Positions 7,132 to 59,170 of a DNA stretch of 64,000 bases are shown here, one piece after another. The DNA is from Mucilaginibacter sp. KACC 22773. GTDB taxonomy: Bacteria; Bacteroidota; Bacteroidia; Sphingobacteriales; Sphingobacteriaceae. The stretch lies in the NCBI RefSeq assembly GCF_028736215.1, contig NZ_CP117883.1, positions 1,240,001 to 1,304,000 on the forward strand. Direction: 5' to 3'. The notes under the pieces were generated by a model. The model made no database searches and was not told the origin of the DNA. It saw only the letters and a program-made list of their open reading frames with translations. A program made the position numbers and the translations under genes. Numbering within the stretch: the first letter of the stretch is position 1; each line of letters opens with the position of its first letter.

Positions 7132-7300
7132 ACCGTCGTTGCGAGTATCCATTAGGCAAAGCTGAAAAAAGCGTTATGACGTGCAACGAATATAGTTAAA
7201 CGAATGTTCTAAACTACCGTCATTGCGAGTACCCATCAGGATATCCCTGAAAAAAATCGTTATGACGCGCAACGGATATAGTTAAACAATGTTCTAAACT
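7132..7300 (+). repeat. Two imperfect 84/85-bp direct repeats
   Basis: Units at 7132-7215 and 7216-7300 both begin ACCGTC(G/A)TTGCGAGTA and end GTTCTAAACT. They differ by scattered substitutions and one or two indels. The next segment (7301 on) starts with the same ACCGTCATTGCGAG but continues as the palindromic element at 7302-7382. Confidence 0.85.
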
Positions 7301-7301
7301 A

Positions 7302-7382
7302 CCGTCATTGCGAGGCACGAAGCAATCCCAAACTATATGGGACTTAGCATGTCGGGGATTGCTTCGTACCTCGCAATGACGG
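7302..7382. repeat. Palindromic CGTCATTGCGAGG element, copy 1
   Basis: The 28-base arms at 7302-7329 and 7355-7382 are reverse complements with one mismatch and flank a 25-base loop. The core CATTGCGAGG..CGAAGCAATC is a repeat type common in Bacteroidota genomes. A second full copy is at 29577-29655 and shares the loop text as well. Confidence 0.85.
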
Positions 7383-18973: not shown

Positions 18974-19200
18974 TGCAGATTTCAGATGTGCAGATGATTA
19001 ATTGATTTGAAAATTTGAGGATTTGAAGATTTGAAAATGTTCAGATTACGCTCAGCGACTTAATCATCCAATCATATAAATATTAATCTGCACATTTGCA
19101 CATCTGAAATCTGCACATCTGGAAACACATTTGAAATCTGCACATCTAACCAGGCTGCACATCAAAATTCAATAATTCACTAACTCAATAATTCATTAAT
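18974..19200. repeat. GCACATCTGAAATCTGCA inverted words plus AATTCA stutter
   Basis: TGCAGATTTCAGATGTGC (18974-18991) is an exact 18-base reverse complement of 19098-19115. Further GCACATCT words follow to about 19165. Then comes a TCAATAATTCACTAAC stutter; its 22 bases at 19174-19195 recur exactly at 57898-57919 between mreC and mreB. Confidence 0.8.
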
Positions 19201-29525: not shown

Positions 29526-29913
29526 GATTGGGTTGATTAGGTGAGTGGTTGGTGAGCCGAAATCGTAAAATACAATCGTCATTGCGATGTACGAAGCAAT
29601 CCCGAACTATGTGGGACTTAAGCATGTCAAAGATTGCTTCGTGCCTTATAATGACATCATTGTAAATTATTGATTATCAATATTGTTTTTTTGTAGAGAC
29701 GCATAATTGCGTCTCCCGCATGCAAATCACACATGCAAATCGGCCTTGCAATCGCACCTTGCAAATCCTGAATGTCCTGCGGGAGACGCAATTATGCGTC
29801 TCTACAACAGCCCTATTTGCAGCAATGTCATTTCTGTTTTTTCCAGCCAAGCTGGTGATTACTCGCAATGACGGTTAAGTGTATAACCAACCCCTCACCT
29901 AATCAACCCAATC
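29526..29913. repeat. Three-layer concentric inverted repeat after murI
   Basis: Outer arms: 29526-29552 against 29887-29913, 27 bases with one mismatch (core ACCTAATCAACCCAATC). Middle layer: CGTCATTGCG (29577-29586) against CGCAATGACG (29864-29873). Inner arms: 29691-29720 against 29778-29807, a perfect 30-base match (GTAGAGACGCATAATTGCG core). The middle zone also holds a complete CGTCATTGCGA palindrome (29577-29601 / 29632-29655), and the inner loop has four TGCAA(A)TC words. Confidence 0.9.
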
Positions 29914-29998
29914 CAACTTATTCAACCTAATGCCACCCAATCAACCGCTAACCAATTTAATATACCAAACTTGTCGTCTAAAATAACTCAACATTTAG

Positions 29999-31105: not shown

Positions 31106-31248
31106 GAAAGGTTAAAGGCGAAAGGTAAAAGGAACAAAGCAATTTCGGACATCGAAAAGTCAAAATCGGGTAAATCCCTTAATCTGATAAATCCCGGTTC
31201 AGACGATTTTTTTAGAATTTAGAGTTTAGAATTTAGAGTTTAGAATTT
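31106..31248 (+). repeat. Spacer stutters between nuoH and nuoI
   Basis: A GAAAGGTTAAAGGCGAAAGG stutter (about 31106-31135) is followed by TTTAGAATTTAGAG repeated as a 14-bp unit about 2.7 times (31211-31248). The 165-base spacer is unusual inside an otherwise tightly packed operon. Confidence 0.85.
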
Positions 31249-51562: not shown

Positions 51563-52240
51563 TTAATCGGCCAGGAAAGGCTCAATATGGCTCAGGGCAA
51601 ACAGTAGTTGTTCGTCTGGGCTCAGGTCTGTATTATCCAAAATAATAGCATCTTCGGCACGTGTCAGCGGGCTTTCCTTGCGGGTGGTGTCCTGATAATC
51701 GCGGTGGGCCAGGTTATCAAAAATTTCTTCTAAGGTTATTTCGGGGTTGGTAGGCAACAGTTCTTTATACCGGCGCTCGGCGCGAATCTTTGGGTCGGCA
51801 GTCATAAACAGCTTTACCTGCGCATTCGGGAACACAACGGTGCCAATATCGCGGCCATCCATAATGATGTTTTTTGATTTGCCCATGCGCTGCTGTTGTT
51901 TTACCATAGCAACGCGCACTTCATGTATTGCCGCTATGGTGCTTACCTTGTCGGCCACATGCATCTGGCGTATCTCGTCAGATACTTCTTCATCGTTAAG
52001 GGTGATATGTGTTTTGTAATCCCTTGAGTGAAAGTTAAGGTGGATGTTGTTCAGCGCTTCGGCAATCTGTTCATGATTGGTCAGGTCGATGTTATTACGC
52101 AGAAAATACAAAGCCACGGCACGGTACATTGCGCCGCTATCTACATAAATAAAATGAAGTTTTTTTGCTAAAGCCTTTGCTAAAGTGCTTTTACCACATG
52201 ATGAATAACCATCAATTGCTACTACGATATTGTTGTTCAT
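51563..52240 (-). CDS. cmk: Cytidylate kinase
   Basis: 225 residues. P-loop GYSSCGKST (11-19), the CMP-binding DSGAMYRAVALYFL, and the GRDIGTVVFPNA motif. It phosphorylates CMP and dCMP. Convergent with the deaminase gene. Confidence 0.96.
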   Translation of the reverse strand: MNNNIVVAIDGYSSCGKSTLAKALAKKLHFIYVDSGAMYRAVALYFLRNNIDLTNHEQIAEALNNIHLNFHSRDYKTHITLNDEEVSDEIRQMHVADKVSTIAAIHEVRVAMVKQQQRMGKSKNIIMDGRDIGTVVFPNAQVKLFMTADPKIRAERRYKELLPTNPEITLEEIFDNLAHRDYQDTTRKESPLTRAEDAIILDNTDLSPDEQLLFALSHIEPFLAD

Positions 52241-52403
52241 AAGAGTGGCTAAAATAACGATTTTTGTTGATTGTTGGTTGTTGAATGGTTGAATAAGTTG
52301 ATTGAGTGAGTAGTTGATTAGGTTGATTGAGTTGATTTAGTGAATGGTTGACTAAGTTAAAAAAGTTCAAAAATTTAAAACAATGCCGGCTTTGGCGCAT
52401 TCT
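52241..52403. repeat. Degenerate GGTTGATTA left arm before the array
   Basis: The spacer upstream of cmk has many TTGATT words. The 19 bases GATTAGGTTGATTGAGTTG (52316-52334) recur exactly at 59083-59101 and inverted at 59142-59160. The words run opposite to the adjacent tandem array, so they can pair with it. Confidence 0.8.
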
Positions 52404-52649
52404 AACCTAATCAACCTAATCAACCTAATCAACCTAATCAACCTAATCAACCTAATCAACCTAATCAACCTAATCAACCTAATCAACCTAATCAACCTAA
52501 TCAACCTAATCAACCTAATCAACCTAATCAACCTAATCAACCTAATCAACCTAATCAACCTAATCAACCTAATCAACCTAATCAACCTAATCAACCTAAT
52601 CAACCTAATCAACCTAATCAACCTAATCAACCTAATCAACCTAATCAAC
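52404..52649 (+). repeat. 27-copy perfect 9-bp tandem array (AACCTAATC)
   Basis: CTAATCAAC repeats 27 times without error from 52407 to 52649. The reading frame LIN is open on one strand and IRL on the other only because the 9-bp unit contains no stop in those frames. I do not treat either as a gene. The array ends 11 bases before the arfB -7 box. Confidence 0.98.
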
Positions 52650-52659
52650 CTAAAAAAGC

Positions 52660-52667
52660 TACATTTG
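52660..52667 (+). promoter_or_regulatory. Bacteroidota -7 box for arfB
   Basis: TACATTTG is an exact TAnnTTTG match directly after the array and 5 bases before ATG 52672. The -33 position falls inside the array, where no TTTG exists. Confidence 0.6.
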
Positions 52668-52671
52668 AAAA

Positions 52672-53082
52672 ATGAACCTGAATAAAGCCGATTTACAAAA
52701 AGAAATAAACTACAAAACGTCACGCAGCGGGGGTAAGGGGGGCCAAAACGTTAACAAAGTATCAAGCAAGGTTGAACTTTTGTTTGATGTTGCCAGTTCG
52801 GCATTATTTACTGAAGATGAGAAAGCGTTGCTTACGGGCAAATTGCAAAACCGATCAAATAAAGATGGCCTGGTGCAAGTAATTTGCGATGAAGAGCGCA
52901 GCCAATACCTTAATAAAGAAAAAGCGGTTGAAAGGCTGATTGCCCTTTTAGGTCGCGCCCTGCAGGTACAAAAAGTGCGTAAACCCACCAAAGTAAGCAA
53001 GGCCGCCAAAGCCGCCCGCCTTGACAACAAAAAGAGACAATCGGCAAAAAAGGAAAACAGGGGAAAAAATTATGAAGAATAG
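52672..53082 (+). CDS. arfB: Alternative ribosome-rescue factor ArfB (YaeJ-like)
   Basis: 136 residues. It hydrolyses peptidyl-tRNA on stalled ribosomes. The GGQ motif is at residues 23-25 (TSRSGGKGGQNVNK). The C terminus is a Lys-rich tail (SAKKENRGKNYEE) that enters the mRNA channel in relatives. The gene begins 22 bases after the tandem array. Confidence 0.95.
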   Translation: MNLNKADLQKEINYKTSRSGGKGGQNVNKVSSKVELLFDVASSALFTEDEKALLTGKLQNRSNKDGLVQVICDEERSQYLNKEKAVERLIALLGRALQVQKVRKPTKVSKAAKAARLDNKKRQSAKKENRGKNYEE

Positions 53083-57831: not shown

Positions 57832-57840
57832 CGCTTTATA

Positions 57841-57935
57841 ATTAGTGAATTAGTGAATAACTGAATTATTGAATTGAAAAAGCAATTAAAAATCACTAAT
57901 TCACTAACTCAATAATTCAGTCATTGATCAACTAT
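57841..57935. repeat. AATTCACTAAC word-stutter inverted repeat between mreC and mreB
   Basis: Left words ATTAGTGAATTAGTGAATAA (from 57841) face TCACTAATTCACTAAC (from 57893). 57898-57919 is identical to 19174-19195. It splits mreB from mreCD-mrdA-rodA within one operon direction, so it may lower readthrough. Confidence 0.8.
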
Positions 57936-58954: not shown

Positions 58955-59058
58955 CTAATGTTTCCCTTGAAATAATCTGCAAAGTTTATAAAAATACGCT
59001 TAATAAAATTACATACTTGCAATTAAAAGCGTTAAAAATTAATATTTATTGTTTGCGT

Positions 59059-59160
59059 GGGTTGATTAAGTTGGATTGGGTTGATTAGGTTGATTGAGTT
59101 GTTATACTCGCTCTTGTTTTTTTTAAACCACTCACTTAATCCAACTCAATCAACCTAATC
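59059..59160. repeat. GATTAGGTTGATTGAGTTG inverted repeat between purH and mreB
   Basis: 59083-59101 and 59142-59160 are perfect 19-base inverted partners. The same 19 bases are at 52316-52334. GGTTGATTA is the complement of the 9-bp unit of the 52404 array. Confidence 0.88.
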
Positions 59161-59170
59161 AACTCAAACT

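Follow-up and report, generated by a model that had tools for sequence, protein, structure and literature searches.

Twenty-seven copies of a 9-bp unit, CTAATCAAC, stand head to tail without an error between the divergent genes cmk and arfB of Mucilaginibacter sp. KACC 22773, which raises the questions of how such an array arises and whether its length matters to the genes on either side. The locus was analysed within a window of 64,000 nucleotides, part of a genome (G000) that consists of one contig of 7.54 Mb, and was compared across the genus. The two genes are a housekeeping pair, and the gap between them is 431 nt, with the arfB ATG at 52672. An earlier note on this DNA had read the array as the expanded arm of a hairpin whose copy number could tune arfB or cmk. 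We consider it probable that the 27 CTAATCAAC units are one arm of a predicted hairpin lying between the predicted -7 boxes of cmk and arfB, and that their number, which varies by genome, changes likely through polymerase slippage. The features of the locus are as follows.

51563..52240, minus strand: cmk, (d)CMP kinase (NCBIfam TIGR00017, 239.1 bits against a cut-off of 135.55)
52249..52256, minus strand: predicted cmk -7 box TATTTTAG (CNAAnnTA motif in genus spacers)
52264..52358, plus strand: left arm of the predicted hairpin, GT-rich and made of degenerate TTGATT-type units, with approximate limits (TRF rows 52266-52367 and 52280-52358)
52313..52321, minus strand: lone exact inverted CTAATCAAC copy within the left arm (sequence match)
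52359..52403, plus strand: loop or core, with AAAACA at 52377-52382, 21 nt before the array (sequence; closely similar at the cmk-arfB site of G060)
52404..52653, plus strand: perfect period-9 array, 27.8 copies of CTAATCAAC, 100% match (TRF; 27 full units at 52407-52649)
52660..52667, plus strand: predicted arfB -7 box TACATTTG (TAnnTT[ACT]G motif in genus spacers)
52672..53082, plus strand: arfB, alternative ribosome-rescue aminoacyl-tRNA hydrolase (NCBIfam NF006718, 124.1 bits against a cut-off of 100)

The array is one arm of a predicted hairpin

The 27 error-free repeats described in the earlier note are exact at 52407-52649. The 9-mer occurs 32 times in the window where shuffles lead one to expect 0.45, and all 26 overlapping matches to its doubled form in the 7.54 Mb genome fall at the cmk-arfB site; this array is the sole head-to-tail copy of CTAATCAAC in G000. 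Its units are identical and repeated head to tail beyond chance, as in a variable-number tandem repeat (VNTR), and the absence of errors among them supports the recent or ongoing expansion that had been proposed. A CRISPR was dismissed from the sequence, the units having no spacers between them, and an Rfam search of the window returned nothing at the gathering score.

The degenerate, inverted left arm reported previously is also present. It holds one exact reverse copy of the unit (52313-52321), and its inverted pairing with the array scores 49, the best of 200 shuffles being 27. In the predicted DNA fold of the G000 spacer (z -9.5) the left arm pairs with the array and leaves around 16.4 of the 27.8 units unpaired; in the predicted fold of the sister species G060 the left arm is longer and the array is paired to its end. 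When G000 was searched for the cmk-arfB loop, a second full copy was not found; the next best match (30 nt, 87%) lies in another hairpin at 8.07 kb.

Single copies of CTAATCAAC had also been noted elsewhere, always inside hairpins. Such copies do exist, although they number five and not three (29532 minus, 29899 plus, 52313 minus, 59080 minus and 59155 plus), and their placement fits, as those at 29.5-29.9 kb and 59.1 kb make opposed pairs within two further elements:

29526..29960, no strand: inverted TTGATT/AATCAA repeat whose arms enclose a different palindromic element (sequence)
59058..59163, no strand: TTGATT/AATCAA hairpin of the same family as that at cmk-arfB (TRF and sequence)

The window holds other repeats. 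A palindromic element of GTCATTGCGA type is found at 7132-7314 and around 29580-29660, is partly tandem (86-bp period, 2.2 copies) and is once nested between the arms of a TTGATT hairpin. Further short-unit repeats are AATTAGTG (4.5 copies, 57840-57875) and TTTAGAATTTAGAG (2.7 copies, 31211-31248). Eight-mer repeats of ATCTGCAC type lie at 19086-19147, and a similar motif fills the cmk-arfB loop of the same-species genome G145 (L143), which suggests unit families moving between gaps.

Copy number differs between genomes

At the orthologous cmk-arfB site CTAATCAAC is present in 27.8 copies in G000, in 14.1 in G060 and in 1.7 in G145, the last being a draft whose exact value needs checking because short-read assemblies can shorten arrays. 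The proposed variability is therefore seen, and copy number differs between strains as it does in VNTRs. G060 is a single contig with an arfB 91% identical to that of G000, and its 14.1 copies are perfect. G145 is in about 40 contigs, its arfB is 96% identical, and it has a different cmk-arfB loop, made of ATCTGCAC-like repeats; this changed loop is not caused by assembly length. In another congener, G080, the right-arm position is taken by the heptamer TAATGAC in 5.6 perfect copies. Perfect arrays of at least three copies (period 5-12) occur in only 3 of 111 cmk-arfB spacers, those of G000, G060 and G080.

Five other sites gave a similar picture, their right-hand arrays all differing between G000 and G145 (16.6/9.6, 10.9/6.6, 20.6/12.6, 10.5/0 and 9.1/1.0 copies); the whole comparison covers six sites, five of them picked via a shared core or slot, and leaves out an array at 444.7 kb. 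The left tract at 299.7 kb has the same copy number in both genomes (3.9/3.9). Six of the 16 hairpin loci of G145, at five sites, align through against G000 with 0-1 gap openings and are nearly unchanged, and five of the 16 have no counterpart among the loci compared. Beside a small gene near a hairpin gap, G000 and G145 differ by about 206 bp (L138 970-1177 versus L103 1176/1177). The cmk-arfB array is likely a fast-changing DNA stutter.

The cmk-arfB spacer across the genus

An arfB-like match was found in 147 of 149 genus genomes and upstream DNA was examined for 130, with 11 further full matches and 6 fragmentary or weak ones left out of this set. Of the 130, nine were dropped because their arfB start could not be recognised, and 10 of the other 121 because they showed no cmk. 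The 111 spacers that remain are between 23 and 944 nt long, and folding was counted for 110 of them, all but the one of 944 nt. In four congeners (L018, L019, L254 and L265) the whole divergent gap is 23-27 nt between start codons.

The 9-mer family is present in 37 of the 110 spacers, an unrelated TTTGCAG/CTGCAAA family in 14, and neither in 59. Thirty spacers fold at z -3 or lower and 21 of these belong to the 9-mer family, which, together with the fully paired array of G060, bears out the suggestion of a hairpin in which one arm expanded; 16 of the 37 family members do not reach z -3. The folds of the G145 spacer (z -1.0) and the G080 spacer (z +2.4) are not significant. Spacers shorter than 80 nt make up 25 of the 110, and none of these 25 scored for either hairpin family.

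Promoter boxes and the question of control

In most spacers of the genus both genes have a predicted -7 box close to the start codon. In the 24 nt next to the cmk start codon, CNAAnnTA is present in 110 of 111 spacers (background 2.8% per 24 nt), at a distance of 5-9 nt from the ATG; in the 24 nt next to the arfB start codon, TAnnTT[ACT]G is present in 87 of 111 (background 1.9%) and ends 3-6 nt before the ATG. In G000 the arfB box TACATTTG at 52660-52667 begins 11 nt after the last full unit, exactly as the earlier note had it, and the period-9 tract as a whole ends 6 nt short of the box. In Flavobacterium psychrophilum, according to the sections of the source consulted, the -7 box is placed at -12 to -5 and only 5.5% of mRNAs are leaderless (PMC9723704). 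With that spacing the arfB start falls on the ATG and -33 becomes 52639, which is indeed inside the array. A box at -12 to -5 thus predicts that the G000 arfB transcript is leaderless and that the array would lie outside both transcripts, since transcription of both genes is predicted to begin at the start codon or a few nt away from it. The arfB gene is predicted to be leaderless or nearly so wherever its -7 box was recognised (87 of 111).

The proposal that copy number controls arfB or cmk is not supported by these comparisons. The last 36 nt through the arfB ATG are identical in G000 with 27.8 copies and in G145 with 1.7, so that copy number as such appears to leave the core promoter unaltered. 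A TTG upstream of the arfB box was found at 16-21 nt spacing in only 7 of 88 sites (12 of 88 at 14-21 nt), hence there is no conserved -33 element. With respect to the predicted arfB -7 box the array is on the upstream side and not between promoter boxes, and the change in copy number, unlike that of phase-variation repeats, shifts neither promoter spacing nor a leader. Furthermore, 108 of the 111 sites are without a perfect array of at least three copies, and four spacers are 23-27 nt in all. To judge from these sequences, array length probably does not set the expression strength of the neighbouring genes.

Dispersed hairpins and arrays

The hairpin at cmk-arfB belongs to a dispersed population. 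A hairpin end, AATCAACCACTCAC, is present in 109 of 149 genomes, and G000 has 39 copies of it but only 1 of the reversed control, a dispersed intergenic distribution of the kind seen with miniature inverted-repeat transposable elements (MITEs). Ends of the type GGTGAGTGG...CCACTCACC recur in the strong hairpins. Of the 23 strong sites in G000, tandem gaps hold 19, convergent gaps 3 and divergent gaps a single one, and a role of the hairpins as markers of divergent promoters was rejected on this count. Under a loose two-arm criterion, 11 gaps in 864 kb of G000 matched, 7 of them tandem (of 355), 3 divergent (of 97) and 1 convergent (of 97); this count was made with a crude ORF caller, and some of the 11 matches are unconvincing as hairpins. 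Both ends are present in only 2 of these 11. By eye, insertion sequence ends and target duplications were not recognised at the hairpins.

Doubled TTGATTRRG gives 15 plus-strand and 54 minus-strand matches in G000, mostly in two perfect arrays, namely that at cmk-arfB and a related one at 444.7 kb with 15.6 CCAATCAAC units. Five perfect tracts (period 5-20, at least 4 copies) were found in the 864 kb sample, the cmk-arfB array included, and the other four are ACCAATGA (4.2 copies), TTAGTCA (16.6), AAGTCAA (4.3) and TCATTAG (10.9). The cmk-arfB tract was flagged as being within an ORF, which is due only to the open frames of the repeat. TTAGTCA and TCATTAG are of the same heptamer class as TAATGAC, which in four-fold form is found in 33 of 149 genomes, on both strands.

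Five G000 sites have in common a core, TTATGTTAAATAGTTAAAACAATCTTC (at most 3 mismatches), with a GTTGTGA, GTAGTGA or GTGGTGA tract of 1.7 to 16.6 perfect copies on its left and a TAATGAC, CACTGAC or ACCAATGA array of 9.1 to 20.6 copies on its right. In G145 the right-hand array is different at every one of the five. Of 10 chosen genomes 3 have this heptamer core, and the core of G053 and G056 is present in 2 of 12, so that the cores look clade-specific.

Deposited sequences named M. agri, M. flavus and M. dorajii that contain CTAATCAAC have arrays and flanks that match G016, G056 and G053. All 93 overlapping matches to tripled CTAATCAAC, in 7 genomes, are on the deposited plus strand and none on the minus, though contig orientation should be arbitrary. 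At G000 ~873.1 kb (L284 1300-1720) there is a TTGATT-type inverted repeat with some four blocks of ~60-70 bp in tandem within its right arm and a repeated block of ~20 bp in its left arm, an expansion on a larger scale within the TTGATT family. In a Phaeodactylibacter metagenome-assembled genome (class Saprospiria; L118, L119, L124) there are CTAATCAAC/GTTGATTAG arrays with 4-5 copies each, and in two cases an inverted partner arm lies next to the array. Phaeodactylibacter lies in a different class of Bacteroidota from Mucilaginibacter.

Probable replacement of whole fillers at a second slot

A second slot, the gap left of G000:C1:3019139, was located in 28 of 28 chosen genomes. In G000 it is filled by (GTTGTGA)16.6-core-(TAATGAC)9.1, in the same-species G145 and the sister G060 by degenerate 9-mer hairpins, and in G053 and G056 by perfect GTTGATTAG arrays of 7 and 4 copies. 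The slot is a short gap without repeats in 16 of the 28, is filled in 5 and holds other or unclassified sequence in 7; empty sites in relatives are thus observed here, as they are for MITEs. The near-identical junctions on both sides in the five filled genomes suggest that whole fillers were inserted or exchanged. The gap fillers of Mucilaginibacter look exchangeable, being either hairpins or cores beside perfect 7-, 8- or 9-bp arrays, and unrelated hairpin families and arrays occupy the same intergenic slots.

A boundary motif beside TAATGAC arrays

A first set of 29 loci was found solely via the TAATGAC array, one of 30 having been excluded because its array is at a contig start. AAAACA lies 14-26 nt 5' of the array in 7 of the 29, with 0 of 29 in mirror position and 1 downstream on the same strand, and TTC(C)(C) is within 3 nt of the array in 12 of 29 versus 3 of 29 downstream. 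In 17 TAATGAC loci fetched later, AAAACA is 14-26 nt 5' in 9 (mirror 0, downstream 0; background 1.75%) and TTC(C)(C) abuts the array in 11 versus 0 of 17 downstream, one locus having no downstream sequence. A stricter form recorded before the fetch, AAAACAW at 18-22 nt, a narrower window than 14-26 nt, is found in 7 of 29 loci of the first set and 6 of 17 of the later set. For 9 of 17 the p-value is 3e-12, but this assumes more independence than there is, since some loci share homologous cores (e.g., L410 and L413), and in some cores AAAACA sits within a terminator-like stem-loop. The AAAACA/TTC boundary motif is a lead, not a mechanism.

Origin of the array and alternative explanations

The best reading of the cmk-arfB array is likely that of a slippage-expanded repeat in a dispersed filler element, akin to known minisatellite or STRR-type elements. 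A short hairpin filler would have entered, or evolved within, the divergent cmk-arfB gap, and the unit adjoining the loop would then have been amplified, likely by slippage helped by the folding of single-stranded DNA, a process that may also homogenise the array. The left arm would be long enough in G060 to pair with the array but not in G000, and in G145 array and loop would have been replaced or lost. Fillers may move or be exchanged as whole units. Because both core promoters appear near the start codons, the interior of a filler would be free to change, and we infer that array length has little effect on arfB or cmk. Slippage is the inferred source of the arrays; purely local slippage leaves unexplained the motif beside TAATGAC arrays and the swapped fillers.

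If the array were instead a promoter-linked tuning repeat, its copy number would set the strength of arfB or cmk as phase-variable promoter repeats do. Two observations fit this: the period-9 tract reaches to 6 nt from the arfB -7 box, taking in the predicted -33 position, and copy number does vary between genomes. The 36 nt through the arfB ATG are nevertheless unchanged between 1.7 and 27.8 copies, the array is not between the promoter boxes, a perfect array of at least three copies exists in only 3 of 111 congeneric sites, the 25 of 110 spacers below 80 nt scored for neither hairpin family, and the genes are a housekeeping pair; we therefore think tuning quite unlikely. An assembly artefact, that is a wrongly expanded repeat, might be suspected from the contigs that end in arrays in several draft genomes, but is highly improbable given that G000 is one 7.54 Mb contig with unique sequence on both flanks of the array and that the one-contig G060 carries 14 perfect CTAATCAAC copies at the same site. 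Still less credit can be given to a coding repeat. The array is open in some frames, with LIN repeats on the plus strand and RLI repeats on the minus, and ORFs of 100 aa (plus, 52383-52685) and 118 aa (minus, 52367-52723) run through it, but the unit itself closes three of the six frames, and the plus-strand ORF runs over the start of arfB in a different frame. In G145, moreover, there are 1.7 copies with a different loop, and arrays of at least three copies are missing from 108 of 111 spacers. A coding role of the LIN and RLI frames was dismissed on this ORF layout and the absence of such an array in most congeners.

A different origin would be anchored repeat writing, in which some activity, such as a template-copying reverse transcriptase or a repeat-tailed mobile element, and not slippage, adds units at a recognised boundary. 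The one-sided placement of AAAACA (9 of the 17 later loci, 0 of 17 on the mirror side) and of the adjoining TTC(C)(C) (11 of 17 versus 0 of 17 downstream) is in its favour, as are the AAAACA 21 nt upstream of the G000 cmk-arfB array and the 9-nt tandem-repeat cDNA that DRT10 reverse transcriptases produce, as stated in the part of the report available (PMC12632851). G000, however, has arrays of five AC-rich units (CTAATCAAC, CCAATCAAC, TAATGAC, CACTGAC and ACCAATGA), which one RNA template would not yield; some motif loci are homologous in their core and hence not independent, with the motif sometimes in a terminator-like stem-loop; and a YxDD scan of ORFs of at least 250 aa in the 864 kb sample gave six chance-looking matches and no reverse-transcriptase-like protein. 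Such writing seems to us improbable. A doubtful further proposal is that the gaps are 'written', an active, boundary-anchored process adding perfect 7-9-bp arrays beside an AAAACA-N20-TTCC core and the cassettes being swapped between conspecific strains.

The locus offers a strain-variable, homogeneous 9-bp repeat at a conserved divergent promoter. With 27.8 and 1.7 copies within a species and 14.1 in its sister, both the expansion and its effect on the neighbouring genes are directly testable. The motif beside TAATGAC arrays, which simple slippage does not explain, is a concrete lead to the birth of bacterial minisatellites.

Comparison with known systems

The heptamer units of the cyanobacterial STRR elements differ from the Mucilaginibacter units, and the cmk-arfB array does not consist of a heptamer of STRR or TAACTGA sequence: its unit is 9 nt and the sister arrays are of TAATGAC, CACTGAC and CAATGAC. 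Searches of the open-licence literature found nothing relevant on Mucilaginibacter repeats and no close case of promoter-upstream tandem repeats, and reports on 6-9-nt repeats are described as rare in the portion of PMC4692102 consulted.

The same portion describes cyanobacterial STRR and the G-rich heptamers of Xanthomonas and Nostoc as intergenic arrays that, as here, vary in length and sequence between close relatives; the Xanthomonas and Nostoc heptamers are G-rich, whereas the Mucilaginibacter units are not, and the cmk-arfB unit is 9 nt. Phase variation of Moraxella uspA1/uspA2, as outlined in the sections seen of PMC4679880, likewise involves a strain-variable repeat near a start codon, but those are surface-protein genes with the repeat between promoter and start codon. 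In contrast, the predicted -7 box lies between the cmk-arfB array and the start codon, and the 36 nt that end with the arfB ATG are the same in G000 and G145.

The TAACTGA and other heptamers of Beggiatoaceae, Cyanobacteria and five Bacteroidetes are closer (MacGregor 2015, PMC4679880; sections seen). As in Mucilaginibacter, they form short-unit intergenic arrays, other heptamers occur in the same gaps, contigs end in repeats, and close relatives have shorter gaps without obvious repeats. Their units differ from CTAATCAAC and TAATGAC, and in the main Beggiatoaceae genome they lie mostly just upstream of start codons and were proposed as translation signals; the sections seen of that account describe no paired arm or boundary motif, unlike what we find in Mucilaginibacter. 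BrickBuilt, a MITE of Porphyromonas gingivalis (Klein et al. 2015, PMC4596501; in the part consulted), is also a dispersed intergenic element of Bacteroidota with internal tandem repeats, whose copy number varies at orthologous sites between strains and whose sites coincide with assembly gaps. It differs in having an imperfect 23-nt unit where the Mucilaginibacter units are perfect and of 7-9 nt, and in having a non-repetitive leader and tail with IS5-type terminal inverted repeats where the Mucilaginibacter arms are themselves made of units. As far as these partial accounts go, BrickBuilt and the TAACTGA heptamers are the nearest described kinds found.
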